A DNA stretch of 8,458 bases, taken from assembly GCA_016209155.1 (NCBI GenBank), contig JACQWU010000315.1, forward strand, positions 1 to 8,458. Direction: 5' to 3'. Below, piece by piece: positions 1 through 8,248 of this stretch. The notes beneath the pieces are model-generated. The model saw only the letters and a program-made list of their open reading frames with translations. It did not search any database and had not been told where the DNA came from. The position numbers were made by a program, and so were the translations under genes. Source of the DNA: Candidatus Desantisiibacteriota bacterium (GTDB lineage Bacteria; JACRDZ01). The stretch's first letter is position 1; every line of letters begins with the position of its first letter.

Positions 1-2
1 CG

Positions 3-428
3 GACATATTTGCTTGCGGAATAGTCCTGTACGAACTTATTACCGGTATAAAGCTGTTCAAGGGGGATACTGACCTGGAAATTCTTAAGAAGGTGCAACG
101 GGTTGAAATTGTTCCCCCTGCCAAAATAAGAAACAGCCTGCCTAAATTACTGGAGGATATCATCTTAAAAGCCTTGGCGAAGGACCCTAGTCGCCGGTTT
201 CAGACTGCGGCCGAGATGGAAAAGGCTCTGGAACGATTCTTGCTTTCCCCTATTTGTCCACCGGCCAGTAAATCCTTAAGCCATTTTATGAAAGGACTGT
301 ACGAGGAAGAGATTAACCTGGAAATCGGGGAACTGAAAACCTTTAAGGTAACTGCCCCATCGCCTAAATCAGGGACTTTGGCCGTACCTAATGCAATTTC
401 TAATAAAAAAGAAAAAAGTATATCCTGA
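3..428 (+). CDS. Ser/Thr protein kinase (Pkn type), C-terminal fragment, 5' end outside window
   Basis: An open frame enters from the window edge and encodes 141 residues. Residues 1-15 (DIFACGIVLYELITG) are kinase subdomain IX, with the invariant Asp first and the F-A-x-G pattern. Residues 55-72 (LKALAKDPSRRFQTAAEM) are subdomain XI with its invariant Arg. The ATP-binding and catalytic loops lie upstream, outside the window. After the kinase domain, SHFMKGLYEEEI (93-104) resembles the segment following the kinase domain in many myxobacterial and deltaproteobacterial Pkn proteins (family knowledge, from memory). Such kinases phosphorylate Ser/Thr on regulatory targets; no target is visible here. 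The DNA is about 46% GC with GCC, CTG and GGG codons, unlike everything downstream. The last ~10 codons (NKKEKSIS region) are A-rich and probably belong to the neighbouring sequence, so the true C-terminus appears to be lost at a junction near 388-410. Sure of family; unsure whether it belongs to the same genome. Confidence 0.85.
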   Translation, partial: DIFACGIVLYELITGIKLFKGDTDLEILKKVQRVEIVPPAKIRNSLPKLLEDIILKALAKDPSRRFQTAAEMEKALERFLLSPICPPASKSLSHFMKGLYEEEINLEIGELKTFKVTAPSPKSGTLAVPNAISNKKEKSIS

Positions 429-3400
429 CAAAAATGGAAGATGGTATTTTTATTTAGATGAAGAAAAAAAGAACGATATAAGATATTTGATAGAAACTGA
501 TTGCTTATCCTGGCGTGCAGGACAAATAACATATCTTTATGATAATTCTTCAAAATATTCTCCGATATATTTTAATGAATATGATTATTCAACCGATGAT
601 CCAGCTAAACTTCGTTACTATATAGCAGAGCAGGAAAAAATGTATTTTCATGACATTGCTCAAATAAAAAAAATTCAAGATGAATATTTTTTCGAATACT
701 ATGAACTAAGCGGAACTAAAATGTGGATAACAAATGCAAGAATTGCCGGTCAGTTTTCTTTATTCGCAAAAACTGATGAAGGCATAACCGGATTTATAGT
801 TGACCGTCATTCTGAAGGTTTGATAGTAGGTAAAGATGAAATAAAAATGGGACAATTAGGTTCATGTACTAATGAAATTGCTTTAAATAAAGTGCGTGTT
901 CCGCGTGAAAATATAATAGGTATTGCCGGACATGGACAGGTAATAGCGCTTGAAACGCTTAATTCTGGACGTACAGGGCTTGCTGCAGCAGCAACTGCAA
1001 TAATGAATAAAATTTTATCTTTAAGCAAGGAAAAGTTGCTAAATTCAGAAAAAGCAGAAGTTGAAGAAAAAAACGATGAAATAAAAGTTAATAAAATTGA
1101 TGACTTGCAATTTTTAAATTTAGGACATATTTTTATTAAAGTTTTAATGTCTGAATCTCTTGTTTTTGATCTTATTTCTTTGTGGGATTCCCCGTCAACT
1201 AAATCTGTACGAATGGAATCCGCAATATCTAAATATTTTTGTTCTGAACTTTTGCACGAAGTATTGTATTTTGCCGAAGATTTTTTTGGGCTTGAAGGGC
1301 AAACAGATATATATTTAATTGAAAAAATCAGACGCGATGCAAGAATCCTCAACATTTATGAAGGAACAAATGAAGTACAGCGTTTTTTAGTACTTAAAGA
1401 TTTGATACGTGTAATAAATGAAAAAGCATTTGATTCTGAAGAAAAAATTTATCCGGTTCCTGATTATATTAAAAATTTTATCAAAAAAATCAAAGTACTA
1501 AAGATGCATTTGTATGAGTATGTTAAAAAAGCTTTTGAATTAATGGGGGATTCAATTGCCAGTAATGTAACATGGCAGCCTGTATTTTTTCCTTTAGTAG
1601 AATTAGCAGGAATTATCGTGGTTATGGAATCGACAGTAAGACGCTTATGGCTGATCGAAAGTAATATTACCAATAGTGATAAATTTAAAGAGCTAATGGC
1701 AACTGCATTAGAACAGGTTCTGGTTTTTTTAAATCAAAAATTTGAATTATTTGAAAATAAATACCTCTCTTCTTTTAATCTGGCTAAAGAAGGGGTAACT
1801 CCTCCGGAAATAGCAATAGCGGAGATATACTCAATTGATGAGAAAATTGAAAAAACATTTCGTTATATGCCATCTGATAAATCATTTATCCAAATTTTAT
1901 GTATTGTTCGTCCGACAAAAAGATTAGCCCCATTCCCGCGCATAAAAAATGGGAAAATAGCAGAACCTGATACAATAATTGAACCTTCAGATTTAGGGGC
2001 TGTTGTTTCATCATTGCAATTAAAAAATAGATTAAAAGATAAAATTAAAATTACTGTTCTTACAATTGGACAAAAAAAATATGAATCATTACTTAAAGTT
2101 TTATTGGCAGGCGGAGTGGATAATGCAGTAAGAATAGATATAATTGATTTCCCATCAGAAGCTATAGAGACAGCAGATATAATCTATAAATATATAAAAT
2201 CACTGCCAATTTCATTTAATGTAATTTTAAGCGGTAAAGATAGTTCTTTAAATGGACAGAAATTTTTGCCTGTATTAGCTTATAAATTAAATTATTTTTA
2301 TTTTTCAGATATTTTAAAATTTAATTTAAATAATATAGATGAAAACAATTTTATTTTATATTCAAAAATCGCAATGCTTGAATTTGTTACTAATAAAAAT
2401 AATATCTGTATTGAGTTAGATAGCGATAATAATAATATTTTATATACCCTTGATAATTATCTGGAGGTTCTGGGTAAAGAAAATATTAAAGTGATTTCTG
2501 AAAATAGTGCTGTTTCTTTAAATCAAATTATTTATGAAGAAGAAAAAAAAGAAAAAAAGATTATTAAGAAAAAAGAATTGCTGTCAATAAGTGAAATAGC
2601 AGGGATATCAATGGATTTAATTGGAAGAAAAAAAATTACTCATGGAGAAATTTTTAACGAAGATTTAAAAATATTACCATCTTCATTTAATCCCGAAGAA
2701 ATACTTTTCATATCAGATTTAACGTTGACAGCTATAAATCAGGATTATGTTGATTTTGCATTGCATTATGCTGACCAGCTTAATAAAAAACTCGGTATTA
2801 TTTTACTCTGTTACAATAATGAACAATTTAAAAATTATTTAAATGAATTGAAAGAAAAAGGAATAAGCAATGTTTATATAATAGAAATACCTTCAGTTTT
2901 AGCAAGCCCTTATTCTAAAGGGAAGATATTGGAATTATTTTTAGAAAGTTCAAAACATAATTTTAATACAATTATATCTGGCGATAAAAGTAGCATATTA
3001 ATGTATAATCTGGCATCAAATTTATCGAAAATTCAAAGTCATAAAAAAGTCGAGATCTGGCAGAGTATCACAGATGTTCAATATGATATAACTGAAAATA
3101 AGATAATTATTAAATTTAAAACATTCGATGGTAAATTAAGAAGTAAAATAGAAATTGGGAATGAATTATATAAATTTATGATTTTGGAAAAGAATGTAAA
3201 TTTATATAAAACAGAAAATAAAGATGAAAAAAAGAATTTATCTGTTTATTTAACAAAACCAGAATATAAATTTGAAACAGAAGCACAGGAAAACATAGAA
3301 AAATATTATCATAAAATATTAAAAGCATTAAAACCTGAATTGAAAAATGCTGAAATAATAGTGGATTTAGGTTATGGTATAAAAAATAATGAAGGATTAT

Positions 3401-3519
3401 TGCTGGCGCAATCCTTAAAAGATAAACTTCAGGAAATAAGCGGTAAAACGGTTTTTTTAGGAGCAACAAGAAAAGTTACACAGGACTTAAAGCTTTTACC
3501 TGTTTCATATCAAATTTGA
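391..3519 (+). CDS. Acyl-CoA dehydrogenase - EtfB - EtfA fusion, N-terminus replaced or lost, ended early by an in-frame TGA
   Basis: Acyl-CoA dehydrogenases make enoyl-CoA and pass electrons to ETF; here donor and acceptor share one 1042-residue frame. Residues ~88-205 are the dehydrogenase middle domain (ELSGTKMWITNA at 105-116, VRVPRENIIG at 168-177). Residues 205-340 are the C-terminal helical domain; RRDARILNIYEGTNEVQRF (314-332) contains Glu324, the usual catalytic base. Residues ~340-490 are a helical extension like that of VLCAD/ACAD9-type enzymes. Residues 499-725 resemble ETF-beta (CIVRPTKR, EPSDLGAVVSSLQLK, LLAGGVDNAV). Residues ~769-1042 are ETF-alpha, ending inside its FAD domain at LLPVSYQI. 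The usual N-terminal helical domain and LTEPxxGSD motif are absent: residues 1-86 are Tyr-rich and unlike the family. The ATG at 391 has no ribosome-binding site and only marks where this frame opens, so the true start is unknown. The frame resumes intact after the TGA (see 3517-3744). Sure of domains; unsure the gene is functional. Confidence 0.85.
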   Translation: MQFLIKKKKVYPDKNGRWYFYLDEEKKNDIRYLIETDCLSWRAGQITYLYDNSSKYSPIYFNEYDYSTDDPAKLRYYIAEQEKMYFHDIAQIKKIQDEYFFEYYELSGTKMWITNARIAGQFSLFAKTDEGITGFIVDRHSEGLIVGKDEIKMGQLGSCTNEIALNKVRVPRENIIGIAGHGQVIALETLNSGRTGLAAAATAIMNKILSLSKEKLLNSEKAEVEEKNDEIKVNKIDDLQFLNLGHIFIKVLMSESLVFDLISLWDSPSTKSVRMESAISKYFCSELLHEVLYFAEDFFGLEGQTDIYLIEKIRRDARILNIYEGTNEVQRFLVLKDLIRVINEKAFDSEEKIYPVPDYIKNFIKKIKVLKMHLYEYVKKAFELMGDSIASNVTWQPVFFPLVELAGIIVVMESTVRRLWLIESNITNSDKFKELMATALEQVLVFLNQKFELFENKYLSSFNLAKEGVTPPEIAIAEIYSIDEKIEKTFRYMPSDKSFIQILCIVRPTKRLAPFPRIKNGKIAEPDTIIEPSDLGAVVSSLQLKNRLKDKIKITVLTIGQKKYESLLKVLLAGGVDNAVRIDIIDFPSEAIETADIIYKYIKSLPISFNVILSGKDSSLNGQKFLPVLAYKLNYFYFSDILKFNLNNIDENNFILYSKIAMLEFVTNKNNICIELDSDNNNILYTLDNYLEVLGKENIKVISENSAVSLNQIIYEEEKKEKKIIKKKELLSISEIAGISMDLIGRKKITHGEIFNEDLKILPSSFNPEEILFISDLTLTAINQDYVDFALHYADQLNKKLGIILLCYNNEQFKNYLNELKEKGISNVYIIEIPSVLASPYSKGKILELFLESSKHNFNTIISGDKSSILMYNLASNLSKIQSHKKVEIWQSITDVQYDITENKIIIKFKTFDGKLRSKIEIGNELYKFMILEKNVNLYKTENKDEKKNLSVYLTKPEYKFETEAQENIEKYYHKILKALKPELKNAEIIVDLGYGIKNNEGLLLAQSLKDKLQEISGKTVFLGATRKVTQDLKLLPVSYQI

Positions 3520-3744
3520 CAGACAGGAGTAAAAGTAAATCCAAAGATAATTTTTACCCTTGGCATATCAGGAGCGCCTCAGCATATAGATTATATTGGC
3601 AAAGATGCAATTATTATAGCTTTTAATCAGGATCAGGAAGCTCCAATTATTAAATTAAGCAAAGAAAAAACAGGATTTACGATTTATCCAATTATAGGGG
3701 ATTTATTTGAAACAGTAAAAGAATTTATGAAAATACTGGTATAA
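3517..3744 (+). pseudogene. Detached C-terminal end of the ETF-alpha FAD domain, behind an in-frame TGA
   Basis: Directly after the TGA, 74 further codons in the same frame run to TAA at 3742-3744 and complete ETF-alpha. They read QTGVKVNPKIIF, then TLGISGAPQHIDYIG, then IIIAFNQDQEAPI and IIGDLFETVKEF. These match the family consensus QTGKxVxPxLY, GISGAIQHLAG, INKDPEAPI and VGDLF, the part that holds the FAD. The consensus at the stop is Q(V/I)GQTG, so the TGA replaces a glycine, most simply by GGA to TGA. No ATG with a ribosome-binding site precedes the piece, so independent translation is unlikely. There are no other stops or frameshifts, so the change is recent, a sequencing error, or bypassed by readthrough. 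The stop is followed by C (TGAC), known as a leaky context. Confidence 0.8.
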
Positions 3745-4107: not shown

Positions 4108-4138
4108 AAATATTTTTATGTTTTATGAGGAGAAAAAT

Positions 4139-4405
4139 ATGTCAAGACAAACAAAAATTATTAATATGTCCTTACCTCTTCCACTTTGGAGAGAAGTAGA
4201 CAAATTAGCAAAAAAAGAAGAGATTTCCAGAAGTGAAATTTTAAAAGATTCTTTAAGTCAATACATAAAAGCTAAAAAACGATGGCAAATAATTCGAAAG
4301 TGGGGAGAAGAAGCAAGCATAAAATTTAAAATTGAAACAGAAAAAGATCTTGAAAATATAATTCATGAATTCAGGAAAGAAAAAAAACAGAGGACTTCCG
4401 AATGA
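4139..4405 (+). CDS. Ribbon-helix-helix (CopG/Arc-type) antitoxin
   Basis: This is an 88-residue basic protein. Residues ~6-15 (KIINMSLPLP) form the DNA-contacting beta strand. LWREVDKLAKKEEISRSEIL and the following DSLSQYI (to ~42) are the two helices of a ribbon-helix-helix domain, with the typical SRSE turn. The charged C-terminal half is the expected toxin-binding arm. An in-frame ATG exists at 4118, but I chose 4139 because GAGGAG (4127-4132) lies 6 bases before it. Its TGA overlaps the toxin ATG (ATGA, 4402-4405), indicating translational coupling. It should neutralise the PIN toxin and repress the operon through the inverted repeat just upstream. The fold is clear from the pattern; exact subfamily is not. 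Confidence 0.85.
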   Translation: MSRQTKIINMSLPLPLWREVDKLAKKEEISRSEILKDSLSQYIKAKKRWQIIRKWGEEASIKFKIETEKDLENIIHEFRKEKKQRTSE

Positions 4406-4830
4406 AACCTGTATTAAATAGATTCAGGATAGTATTGGATACTAATATTTACATTTCTGCTATTCTTTTCGGAGGTAAACCTGAAGAACTATTGAAGTTA
4501 GCAAGAGCAGGAAAAGTAGGACTTCTAATTTCCGAAAATATTAAAAATGAAATAGCTGAAATATTGAAAAGAAAATTCAAATTTAATGATCTTCAAATTT
4601 CTGAAATATTAGAGGATATTGATAGCGTTTCAACTTTAATTATTCCAAATATTATCTTAAATATCATTAAAAAAGATGATGAGGATAATAAAATATTGGA
4701 ATGTGCTATAGAAGGCAAAGTAAATTATATTATTTCTGGGGATCACCATCTTTTAGAACTTAAAGAATATCAGAAAATAAAAATTTTAAAGATTACAGAG
4801 TTTTTAGATGTTTTTTATGTAAGGGAATAA
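4402..4830 (+). CDS. PIN-domain toxin (putative ribonuclease of a type II toxin-antitoxin pair)
   Basis: This 142-residue protein is a single PIN domain of the usual length. The metal-binding acidic residues are visible: Asp13 in IVLDTNIYISA, a Glu in SENIKNEIAEIL (probably Glu50), Asp95 in DDEDNKILECA, and Asp114 in YIISGDHHLLEL. The pattern fits the 'putative toxin-antitoxin system toxin component, PIN family' group rather than classic short VapC. PIN toxins are Mg-dependent endoribonucleases that cut tRNA, rRNA or mRNA; the target here is unknown. The start overlaps the antitoxin stop by ATGA, so both are made from one message. All active-site acids appear intact, so the toxin is probably functional. 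Confidence 0.88.
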   Translation: MKPVLNRFRIVLDTNIYISAILFGGKPEELLKLARAGKVGLLISENIKNEIAEILKRKFKFNDLQISEILEDIDSVSTLIIPNIILNIIKKDDEDNKILECAIEGKVNYIISGDHHLLELKEYQKIKILKITEFLDVFYVRE

Positions 4831-5597: not shown

Positions 5598-6419
5598 GTG
5601 ATAAATAAAAAAAATATATTATTTATTGGTGCTGGCAATATGGCAGAAGCAATAATCTCCGGTTTAATTTCTGCTAAAGTTTATAATTCAGATCAAATAA
5701 ACGCATATGATATTGATAAATCCAGATTAGAATTTATAAAAAGTAAATTCAAAATAATCACTTATAATAATTTAAAATCTGCGGTTAGTGAAAGCAATAT
5801 TCTTTTATTAGCTGTAAAACCTCAGACTATAATTTTTATTTTAAATGAAATTTGTCCATATTATAAAGATGAGCAACTTATTATTTCTATAGTAGCAGGA
5901 ATAAATTCAAGTATAATAGTAAAATATCTTGGAGAAAATGCTCGTATTATTAGAGTTATGCCAAACACTCCAGCTTTGGTAAAAGCAGGAATGTCCGTAA
6001 TTTGTAAAGCTGGAAAAGCTAAAGAAGAAGATATTGAAGAAGCTAGAAAAATTTTTTCTGCTTTAGGGGAAATAGAAGTTTTATCAGAATTATATTTTAA
6101 CGCTGTTACAGCATTATCAGGTAGTGGTCCGGCTTATGTATTTTTAATGATAGAAGCTTTAATGGAAGCAGGAATAAAAGTAGGATTGAACCGTGATATT
6201 GCGCTAAAATTGGCAATGCAAACAGTATATGGTTCAGTAAAAATGATAAAAAAAACAAATTTGCATCCAGCAGAATTAAAAAATAAAGTATGTTCACCCG
6301 GTGGTACAACTATTGCAGCTTTGTATAAACTGGAAAAAGGAGCATTTCGGGCTTTAATTACAGAAGCAGTTGAAGAGGCTTTCTGTCGTGCAATTGAAAT
6401 GGAAAAAAACAATTGCTGA
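5598..6419 (+). CDS. proC: Pyrroline-5-carboxylate reductase
   Basis: The 273-residue enzyme performs the last step of proline synthesis, reducing 1-pyrroline-5-carboxylate with NAD(P)H in the cytoplasm. The start is GTG at 5598, preceded by AGGAG (5583-5587); the earlier in-frame TTG at 5562 abuts the -10 box of the promoter and has no ribosome-binding site. The N-terminal Rossmann motif is ILFIGAGNMAEAIISG. VKPQ and RVMPNTPALVKAG follow, then the C-terminal helical dimerisation domain with TALSGSGPAYVFLMIEAL and the P5CR signature around VCSPGGTTIAAL near the end. Length and all hallmark motifs are normal for ProC. It leads a tight cluster with yggT 31 bases downstream, an arrangement seen in many bacteria. 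Confidence 0.97.
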   Translation: MINKKNILFIGAGNMAEAIISGLISAKVYNSDQINAYDIDKSRLEFIKSKFKIITYNNLKSAVSESNILLLAVKPQTIIFILNEICPYYKDEQLIISIVAGINSSIIVKYLGENARIIRVMPNTPALVKAGMSVICKAGKAKEEDIEEARKIFSALGEIEVLSELYFNAVTALSGSGPAYVFLMIEALMEAGIKVGLNRDIALKLAMQTVYGSVKMIKKTNLHPAELKNKVCSPGGTTIAALYKLEKGAFRALITEAVEEAFCRAIEMEKNNC

Positions 6420-6775: not shown

Positions 6776-7423
6776 ATGAAGATTAGTCCAGATGATATTA
6801 GACGTCAGAAATTTGAAATTGGTTTTAGAGGATACAATTCACAAGAAGTAGATACTTTTCTTCAATTACTTTCGGATGATTATGATACTTCTATTAAAGA
6901 TAATGAAAGACTGACAAAAGAAGCTTCTGAATTAAGGAAAAAAGTTGATGAATATAGAAAAAAAGAAGAATTTCTTGAAAAAGCTTTAATAGTTGCACAG
7001 CGTTCAGCAGATGAAACTATTGAAGCAGCCAAAAAAGAGGCAGATAAAATTTTAAAAGAAGCTGAACTGAATGGTGAAAAGATTGTTGGACGGGCAGAAA
7101 TTAAATCTATGGAAGTAAAAGATGAAATTTATGAATTACAGAAACAAAAAGAGAATTTTATAATTCAAATTAAAACGCTGATGGATAATATTAATAGTTA
7201 TATTAGTTCACGTTCAAAACAAGAATCATCAGCTGGTTCGCAAAAAACTGAATCGAGAACTTCTTCTATTCAAAAAAAACCTGAAAGCAAACCTGAAAAA
7301 GATAGTGATTTTAAAAATGATATACCGGATTTTGAAGCAGCACTATTGGAATCAACAGAAAATACTGTTAATGATATTGACATAGAGAATAATCCTGATA
7401 TAATCACAACAACAGATGAATGA
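6776..7423 (+). CDS. divIVA: DivIVA domain protein (coiled-coil pole/division-site organiser)
   Basis: This 215-residue protein has a strong ribosome-binding site, AGAGGTGA (6761-6768). Residues 1-36 are the DivIVA N-terminal domain: ISPDDIRRQKFEIGFRGYNS then QEVDTFLQLL, matching the family core GFRGYxxxEVDxFL, which inserts into curved membranes. Residues ~37-145 are a long coiled coil rich in Lys and Glu. Residues ~150-215 are a low-complexity Ser/Lys/Glu tail ending in an acidic stretch (DIDIENNPDIITTTDE), probably disordered and possibly a partner-binding or phosphorylation region. DivIVA-type proteins recruit division or cell-wall machinery to poles and septa. It lies 25 bases after yggT and 21 before yggU. 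The name is by domain; it could be a GpsB- or Wag31-like member with a different local job. Confidence 0.92.
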   Translation: MKISPDDIRRQKFEIGFRGYNSQEVDTFLQLLSDDYDTSIKDNERLTKEASELRKKVDEYRKKEEFLEKALIVAQRSADETIEAAKKEADKILKEAELNGEKIVGRAEIKSMEVKDEIYELQKQKENFIIQIKTLMDNINSYISSRSKQESSAGSQKTESRTSSIQKKPESKPEKDSDFKNDIPDFEAALLESTENTVNDIDIENNPDIITTTDE

Positions 7424-7744: not shown

Positions 7745-8248
7745 TTAATCTCTTCCCGGGCATAAAGGAGTCATGCGATCCTGTCTATGCAGATGACATT
7801 TGCGGCAAACTTTTAATGGATCTATTGGGAAAATAAGGCCTAATTCATTAGCTTTTTTTCTAACTTTCATAATATTCATTGGCCTGTATAAACTTCCCGG
7901 ACCATGACAGGCTTCACATTGAACGCCCTCCAGATTTACCTGTTCATAAAATTTTTGCTCTCCATAACCTGTTGTATGACATTTTAAACATTTTGGATTC
8001 TCTTTATCACTATTTTGAAGTCTATCATAAGCTTTTGAATGTCTCTGTTTTTTCCATGATTCATAAACTTCAGTATGACATATTCCACATTCAATAGCAC
8101 CAATATATTTAAGAACATTGTTTATTGAGGATGATTCAGTATTAAATTTTGTTGTATCTTGTTGAATGGATTTGGGGGTTGGATTTTCTTCTGCTTTTAT
8201 AATTGTAAAAGAAATAAATACAAGGAGCAGGATAAATATTTTTTTCAT
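7745..8248 (-). CDS. Exported tetraheme c-type cytochrome (cytochrome c554-like)
   Basis: This 167-residue protein has an N-terminal signal peptide (MKKIFILLLVFISFTII, likely cut after KA at ~19), so it acts outside the cytoplasm. Four CxxCH heme sites are present: CGICH (54-58), CLKCH (87-91), CEACH (111-115) and CRKCH (148-152). His70 in the WKKQRHSKAY segment is a likely distal heme ligand. The pattern ECGICHxEVYxxWxxxRHxxA followed by GVQCEACHGPGSLYR is typical of the cytochrome c554-type multiheme family, which shuttles electrons in anaerobic respiration. Partners are not visible. AAGGA lies 5 bases before its ATG. The C-terminus (HLHRQDRMTPLCPGRD) ends soon after the fourth heme. There is no lipobox at the signal cleavage site, so I expect a soluble periplasmic protein. 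Confidence 0.93.
   Translation of the reverse strand: MKKIFILLLVFISFTIIKAEENPTPKSIQQDTTKFNTESSSINNVLKYIGAIECGICHTEVYESWKKQRHSKAYDRLQNSDKENPKCLKCHTTGYGEQKFYEQVNLEGVQCEACHGPGSLYRPMNIMKVRKKANELGLIFPIDPLKVCRKCHLHRQDRMTPLCPGRD

Follow-up and report, generated by a model that had tools for sequence, protein, structure and literature searches.

The window analyzed here, i.e., the whole stretch of 8,458 nucleotides, is an entire contig (G000:C281) of a genome that is assembled in 352 contigs (3.08 Mb) and is 79% complete. On its forward strand an open reading frame of 1042 codons ends in a TGA at 3517-3519, and the features found from the start of the contig to just beyond this stop, with the basis on which each was assigned, are the following.

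1..390, + strand: C-terminal part of a Ser/Thr protein kinase catalytic domain, in a different frame from the ORF at 391..3519 (Pfam and composition).
391..3519, + strand: the ORF in its present form, which is the 3′ portion of a giant fusion and is cut early by the TGA (family alignment).
391..1818, + strand: acyl-CoA dehydrogenase module, with the middle and C-terminal domains, the YEGTNEVQ catalytic region and a VLCAD-like C-terminal extension (Pfam, alignment, and fold similarity to VLCAD at Z 24.6).
1888..2529, + strand: EtfB module (PF01012; ETF small/beta fold at Z up to 24.8, rmsd 3.0 over 204 residues).
2690..3744, + strand: EtfA module, start approximate (PF00766; Foldseek matches to ETF alpha chains, the best being 5ol2_A at E 7e-13).
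3517..3519, + strand: in-frame TGA at an invariant-Gly codon of the EtfA FAD-binding domain (frame, and Gly in 21/21 relatives).
3520..3744, + strand: former 3′ end of the gene beyond the TGA, 74 codons and a TAA (no ATG, GTG or TTG restart before 3727).

The EtfB and EtfA modules follow the acyl-CoA dehydrogenase module in order and in a single frame, with the end of EtfA read across the TGA. The first-pass annotation had taken this ORF for ETF-alpha, and this holds for its 3′ end; the ORF also encodes part of an acyl-CoA dehydrogenase and EtfB, and it is without its N-terminus. The dehydrogenase module lacks its N-terminal half and the LTEPxAGSD motif, since homology to the family begins only at about residue 4 of the ORF. 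The N-terminal domain of the EtfA module is very divergent, and its FAD-binding domain, located at 3337-3732, is identified as EtfA by a match to the Pfam ETF_alpha profile (PF00766) in a profile search of the genome itself (G000:C281:3337-3588, 62 bits against a cut-off of 27). This match runs across the TGA, the one such codon inside it, and confirms the earlier claim that ETF-alpha homology lies on both sides of the stop. All fold comparisons reported here rest on a predicted model of the window protein with a mean pLDDT of 71. A product terminated at 3519 would be without most of the FAD-binding domain of EtfA and would not be expected to transfer electrons.

The TGA at 3517-3519 is real in this assembly, and the frame beyond it stays open for 74 codons, up to a TAA at 3742-3744, with no ATG, GTG or TTG in frame before 3727. 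Both EtfA motifs, QxGQTG and GISGxxQH, are present in the window frame, except that the first Gly is itself the stop (QI-stop-QTG). As first proposed, this stop replaces a conserved glycine: all 21 aligned relatives carrying the giant fusion have Gly, and none a stop, at this codon (QIGQTG or QIGQSG), and Gly is likewise present in a separate EtfA encoded on another contig of the same genome (C329; HQIGQTGTTV) and in the EtfAs of two genomes of the same phylum (G001 and G003; HQVGQTGKTV). Local composition predicts ~98 stops in 1042 random codons and gives a probability of ~7e-4 for the 74 codons beyond the TGA staying open by chance, and the codons 3′ of the TGA retain 19 of 20 family-invariant residues. 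The open, conserved frame around the TGA is not due to chance. Taken alone, a stop at 3517-3519 is ordinary, and it is the fusion family to which the frame belongs that is the interesting part of this locus.

A scan of our collection with the window protein alone found nothing. A search of 386 genomes identified one, an unclassified bacterium (G232), whose match to the EtfA end, at 48% identity, lies within a 2,796-codon open frame. From N- to C-terminus, the protein encoded there comprises a FixC/ETF-QO-like flavoprotein, a 4Fe-4S region of the ETF-QO type, a pair of acyl-CoA dehydrogenase modules, EtfB and EtfA. The family was then recovered by a profile scan from an alignment including the G232 relative, which identified ~22 more contigs with the fusion, with members in Nitrospirota/Nitrospirae, Planctomycetota and Proteobacteria in addition to G232 itself. 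One open frame of 2,345-2,902 codons is kept in 16 relatives; the remaining ones are cut by contig ends (4), change frame (2) or contain a TAG (1). The members with a TAG or a changed frame are those at L111, where codon 359 was singled out, L091 and L101, the last of these with a coverage of 1.57, so an error is possible there.

ETF, FixC/ETF-QO and the acyl-CoA dehydrogenases are familiar proteins, both as individual subunits and within complexes; we found no published description of these parts as one chain, although the literature searched mostly excludes subscription journals and the absence of a hit does not establish novelty. For one Nitrospirota member, FixC of Fix/EtfABCX was the nearest match to the first module, and the region that follows was most similar to the 4Fe-4S end of ETF-QO. 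Genes for thiolase, FadJ-type hydratase/dehydrogenase or acyl-CoA ligase adjoin the fusion in all four loci tested (L099, L102, L103 and L112), these four having been selected for flanking ORFs that resembled beta-oxidation genes. Based on this module content and these neighboring genes, the intact family probably represents a single-chain acyl-CoA:quinone oxidoreductase of ~2,350-2,900 residues with its own dehydrogenase, ETF and ETF-quinone oxidoreductase.

Searching the genome under study with the G232 protein located an apparent 5′ part of the same gene on a second contig, C194, which covers G232 residues 6-684 and 996-1158, with C281 covering residues 1578-2632; residues ~1159-1577 are unmatched between the two, and this search found no other copy of either part of the fusion in the bin. 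C194 encodes the FixC/ETF-QO, 4Fe-4S and first dehydrogenase modules, is similar in coverage to C281, and is not physically joined to it. As the two contigs complement each other and neither part has a second copy in the bin, they apparently represent one gene. The frame on C194 is also broken. A TGA interrupts it at 2026-2028, and the homology continues past this codon without leaving the frame; the frame changes near 2690-2703; and ~30-34 codons are lost, among them those for a PYPNF-type motif that each of the 14 full relatives in the alignment has. An uninterrupted single frame is thus absent in this copy, which contains two TGAs, one frame change and one lost segment in all, and we class it as a broken relative, by descent, of the fusion family and not as a working member.

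We compared these lesions with the background in the rest of this MAG. Among 104 homologous places (31,659 codons) compared with a genome of the same phylum, we observed one clear mid-gene nonsense codon, a TAA in cheB, together with one or two small frame changes that are doubtful, i.e., a background of ~1-3 small lesions per ~31,700 codons. Most of the other large frame breaks are N gaps; in the sampled contigs three of the frameshift-like breaks are of this kind, and others resemble tandem paralogues. No internal stops were found in 44 ABC-domain matches, and a coding-score scan for stop-split genes gave 34 candidates, most of which resemble adjacent genes, each having a separate start, or antisense shadows; among the candidates the cheB TAA stands out. 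This gene encodes a CheB methylesterase (L031, G000:C2, - strand), and the TAA lies in frame near 1292 (GLFAMR-stop-NGAYTVAQDE). With one to three lesions as the background, at least three lesions in ~2,300 codons have a probability of 6e-5 to 1.5e-3, a rough guide, since the window was chosen for its TGA and the calculation ignores this. Provided that C194 and C281 are one gene, this copy therefore contains several disabling lesions above the assembly background, as expected of a pseudogene. In the window part, 4 of 98 invariant positions deviate, compared with 0-3 in relatives; for C194, the count of invariant residues is usable for the gap-free parts only, as it comes from a fragment alignment.

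We take the window to carry the 3′ half of a recently decaying copy of the giant fusion, with the TGA being one of several breaks, and assign this reading a probability of about 0.6. Its intact ancestor would have contained the FixC/ETF-QO, 4Fe-4S, two acyl-CoA dehydrogenase, EtfB and EtfA modules in one frame, and the intact chain would oxidise acyl-CoA and hand the electrons via its internal ETF to an ETF-quinone oxidoreductase that is likewise part of the chain. The breaks would be real mutations, and recent ones, because the protein still holds nearly all invariant residues. The gene may have become dispensable, since the genome keeps separate etfB, etfA and fadE genes, located together on C329. 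The etfA gene of this set is interrupted by a 44-base N gap (L029, 3839-3882), so its frame is not checkable to the end. Decay is supported by the intact single-frame relatives, the low background of lesions and the intact state of the rest of C281, where the genes encoding RHH, PIN, hexapeptide, ProC, YggT, DivIVA and YggU proteins are all unbroken. Against it, C194 and C281 are unjoined, their third-position GC differs (0.28 vs 0.19, both within the bin range of 0.18-0.32), and the protein parts are uneroded.

Two further loci were observed on this contig. A ribbon-helix-helix antitoxin and a PIN-domain toxin form a pair with an ATGA overlap at 4118-4830, and 7745-8248 on the - strand encodes a small multihaem cytochrome of the Cytochrome_C554 family, which has several CxxCH motifs and whose start resembles a signal peptide.

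The main rival, which we regard as possible, if doubtful, is that the organism itself has an unbroken gene, and that a fragmented assembly, sequencing error or a mixture of strains produced the kinase junction and all the breaks, the TGA included. The two origins named for the stop at the outset, a fresh nonsense mutation and a sequencing or assembly error, are both still live. The genome is in 352 contigs, is 79% complete and contains N-gapped scaffolds, and the start of C281 is suspect in its own right. Positions 1-390 have a GC content of 46%, a level attained in 0.3% of windows across the sampled genome, and a GC3 of 0.50 vs 0.14-0.19 for the window genes; no close match of the kinase fragment was found elsewhere in the genome or in the phylum (four genomes of the phylum), and the fragment joins the fusion ORF in mid-gene. 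This start is foreign in composition and is a contig chimera or a rearrangement, and a chimeric contig start is likely, so that the contig itself may be chimeric. In addition, a nonsense codon also interrupts the gene for CheB, whose loss would be unexpected; this is consistent with assembly noise or mixed strains. On either side of the TGA almost every invariant residue is retained, meaning that any lesions are either young or artefactual. However, the background of small lesions is low, the other genes of C281 are intact, and the loss of ~30-34 codons is atypical of base-calling error.

Two other explanations, both of them improbable, would keep the gene functional. The first is that it has been split into separately translated, cooperating pieces, such as a FixC-like ORF, a 4Fe-4S ORF and a dehydrogenase ORF. 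On C194, the second ORF has an ATG start ~30 bases after the TGA and the third has an ATG start overlapping the end of the second, an arrangement like translational coupling, but a split gene leaves unexplained both the invariant motif lost from the FixC part and the TGA in the window, where the last 74 codons have no ATG, GTG or TTG until 3727. The second, equally unlikely, is programmed or leaky readthrough of TGAC, resulting in two forms with and without the FAD-binding end. A TGA followed by C is a weak termination context, the base after this TGA is C, and the 74 codons 3′ of it are open and conserved. However, no relative among the 21 aligned has a stop at this codon, and the 5′ part on C194 carries further, unrelated breaks that differ from this one. 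C is the next base in just 2 of the 37 long ORFs of this genome that end in TGA, no restart is available until 3727, no tRNA-Sec scored above the curated threshold, and the tRNAs found include none with a UCA anticodon. The two-form proposal of the first-pass annotation is not upheld by these observations, and programmed readthrough is without positive support. Selenocysteine reading of the TGA is unsupported as well, with no tRNA-Sec above the curated gathering score in the incomplete genome searched.

A genome-wide reading of UGA as Gly (code 25) or another amino acid, which the replaced residue being Gly would suit, has next to no probability and was rejected: prfB (RF2) is present at 521 bits, TGA is in routine use as a stop (37 of 193 long ORFs end in it, and it terminates the antitoxin, proC and divIVA genes at 4403-4405, 6417-6419 and 7421-7423, as noted at first reading), tRNA-Gly with anticodons UCC and CCC and tRNA-Trp with CCA were found, the search for a UGA-reading tRNA gave no UCA anticodon among the tRNAs found in this 79%-complete genome, the C194 TGA is not at a conserved Gly position in the family alignment, and the other nonsense codon in this MAG is a TAA.

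Returning to the decaying copy and the family to which it belongs, the fusion joins on one chain parts that are usually made as four or more separate proteins. If the proposed function is correct, electrons would stay within one molecule from fatty acyl-CoA to membrane quinone. Electron hand-over between ETF and its partners normally occurs by diffusion and docking, and if the fusion works as its parts suggest, this hand-over becomes an intramolecular question. The broken copy suggests that the fusion can be lost where separate genes are also present.

All of these parts have counterparts in known systems. For example, the N-terminal module of the fusion matches FixC of Fix/EtfABCX (PDB 7koe) over most of its length (7koe_C, 110 bits), this module is followed by a 4Fe-4S domain of the type found in ETF-ubiquinone oxidoreductase (PDB 2gmh, residues 490-560), and EtfB and EtfA modules form the C-terminal part of the fusion. 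In those systems these are separate subunits, whereas the fusion carries them on a single polypeptide, together with two acyl-CoA dehydrogenase modules. The Etf/butyryl-CoA dehydrogenase (PDB 5ol2) and caffeyl-CoA reductase-Etf (PDB 6fah) complexes likewise combine an acyl-CoA dehydrogenase with EtfA and EtfB, and by sequence the window dehydrogenase module most resembles 6fah_C; unlike the fusion, both complexes consist of separate subunits and have no ETF-QO part. The window dehydrogenase module is alike in fold to VLCAD, ACAD9 and Bacillus-type FadE (VLCAD, Z 24.6), including the C-terminal extension, with a sequence match to NF058590 that falls below the curated cut-off; unlike these enzymes, it is fused to EtfB and EtfA, and its N-terminal half is not on C281. 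The closest comparison within the same genome is the separate etfB-etfA-fadE set on C329, which encodes the same three activities and keeps the Gly in its EtfA motif but, unlike the fusion, does so as three genes and without an ETF-QO part.
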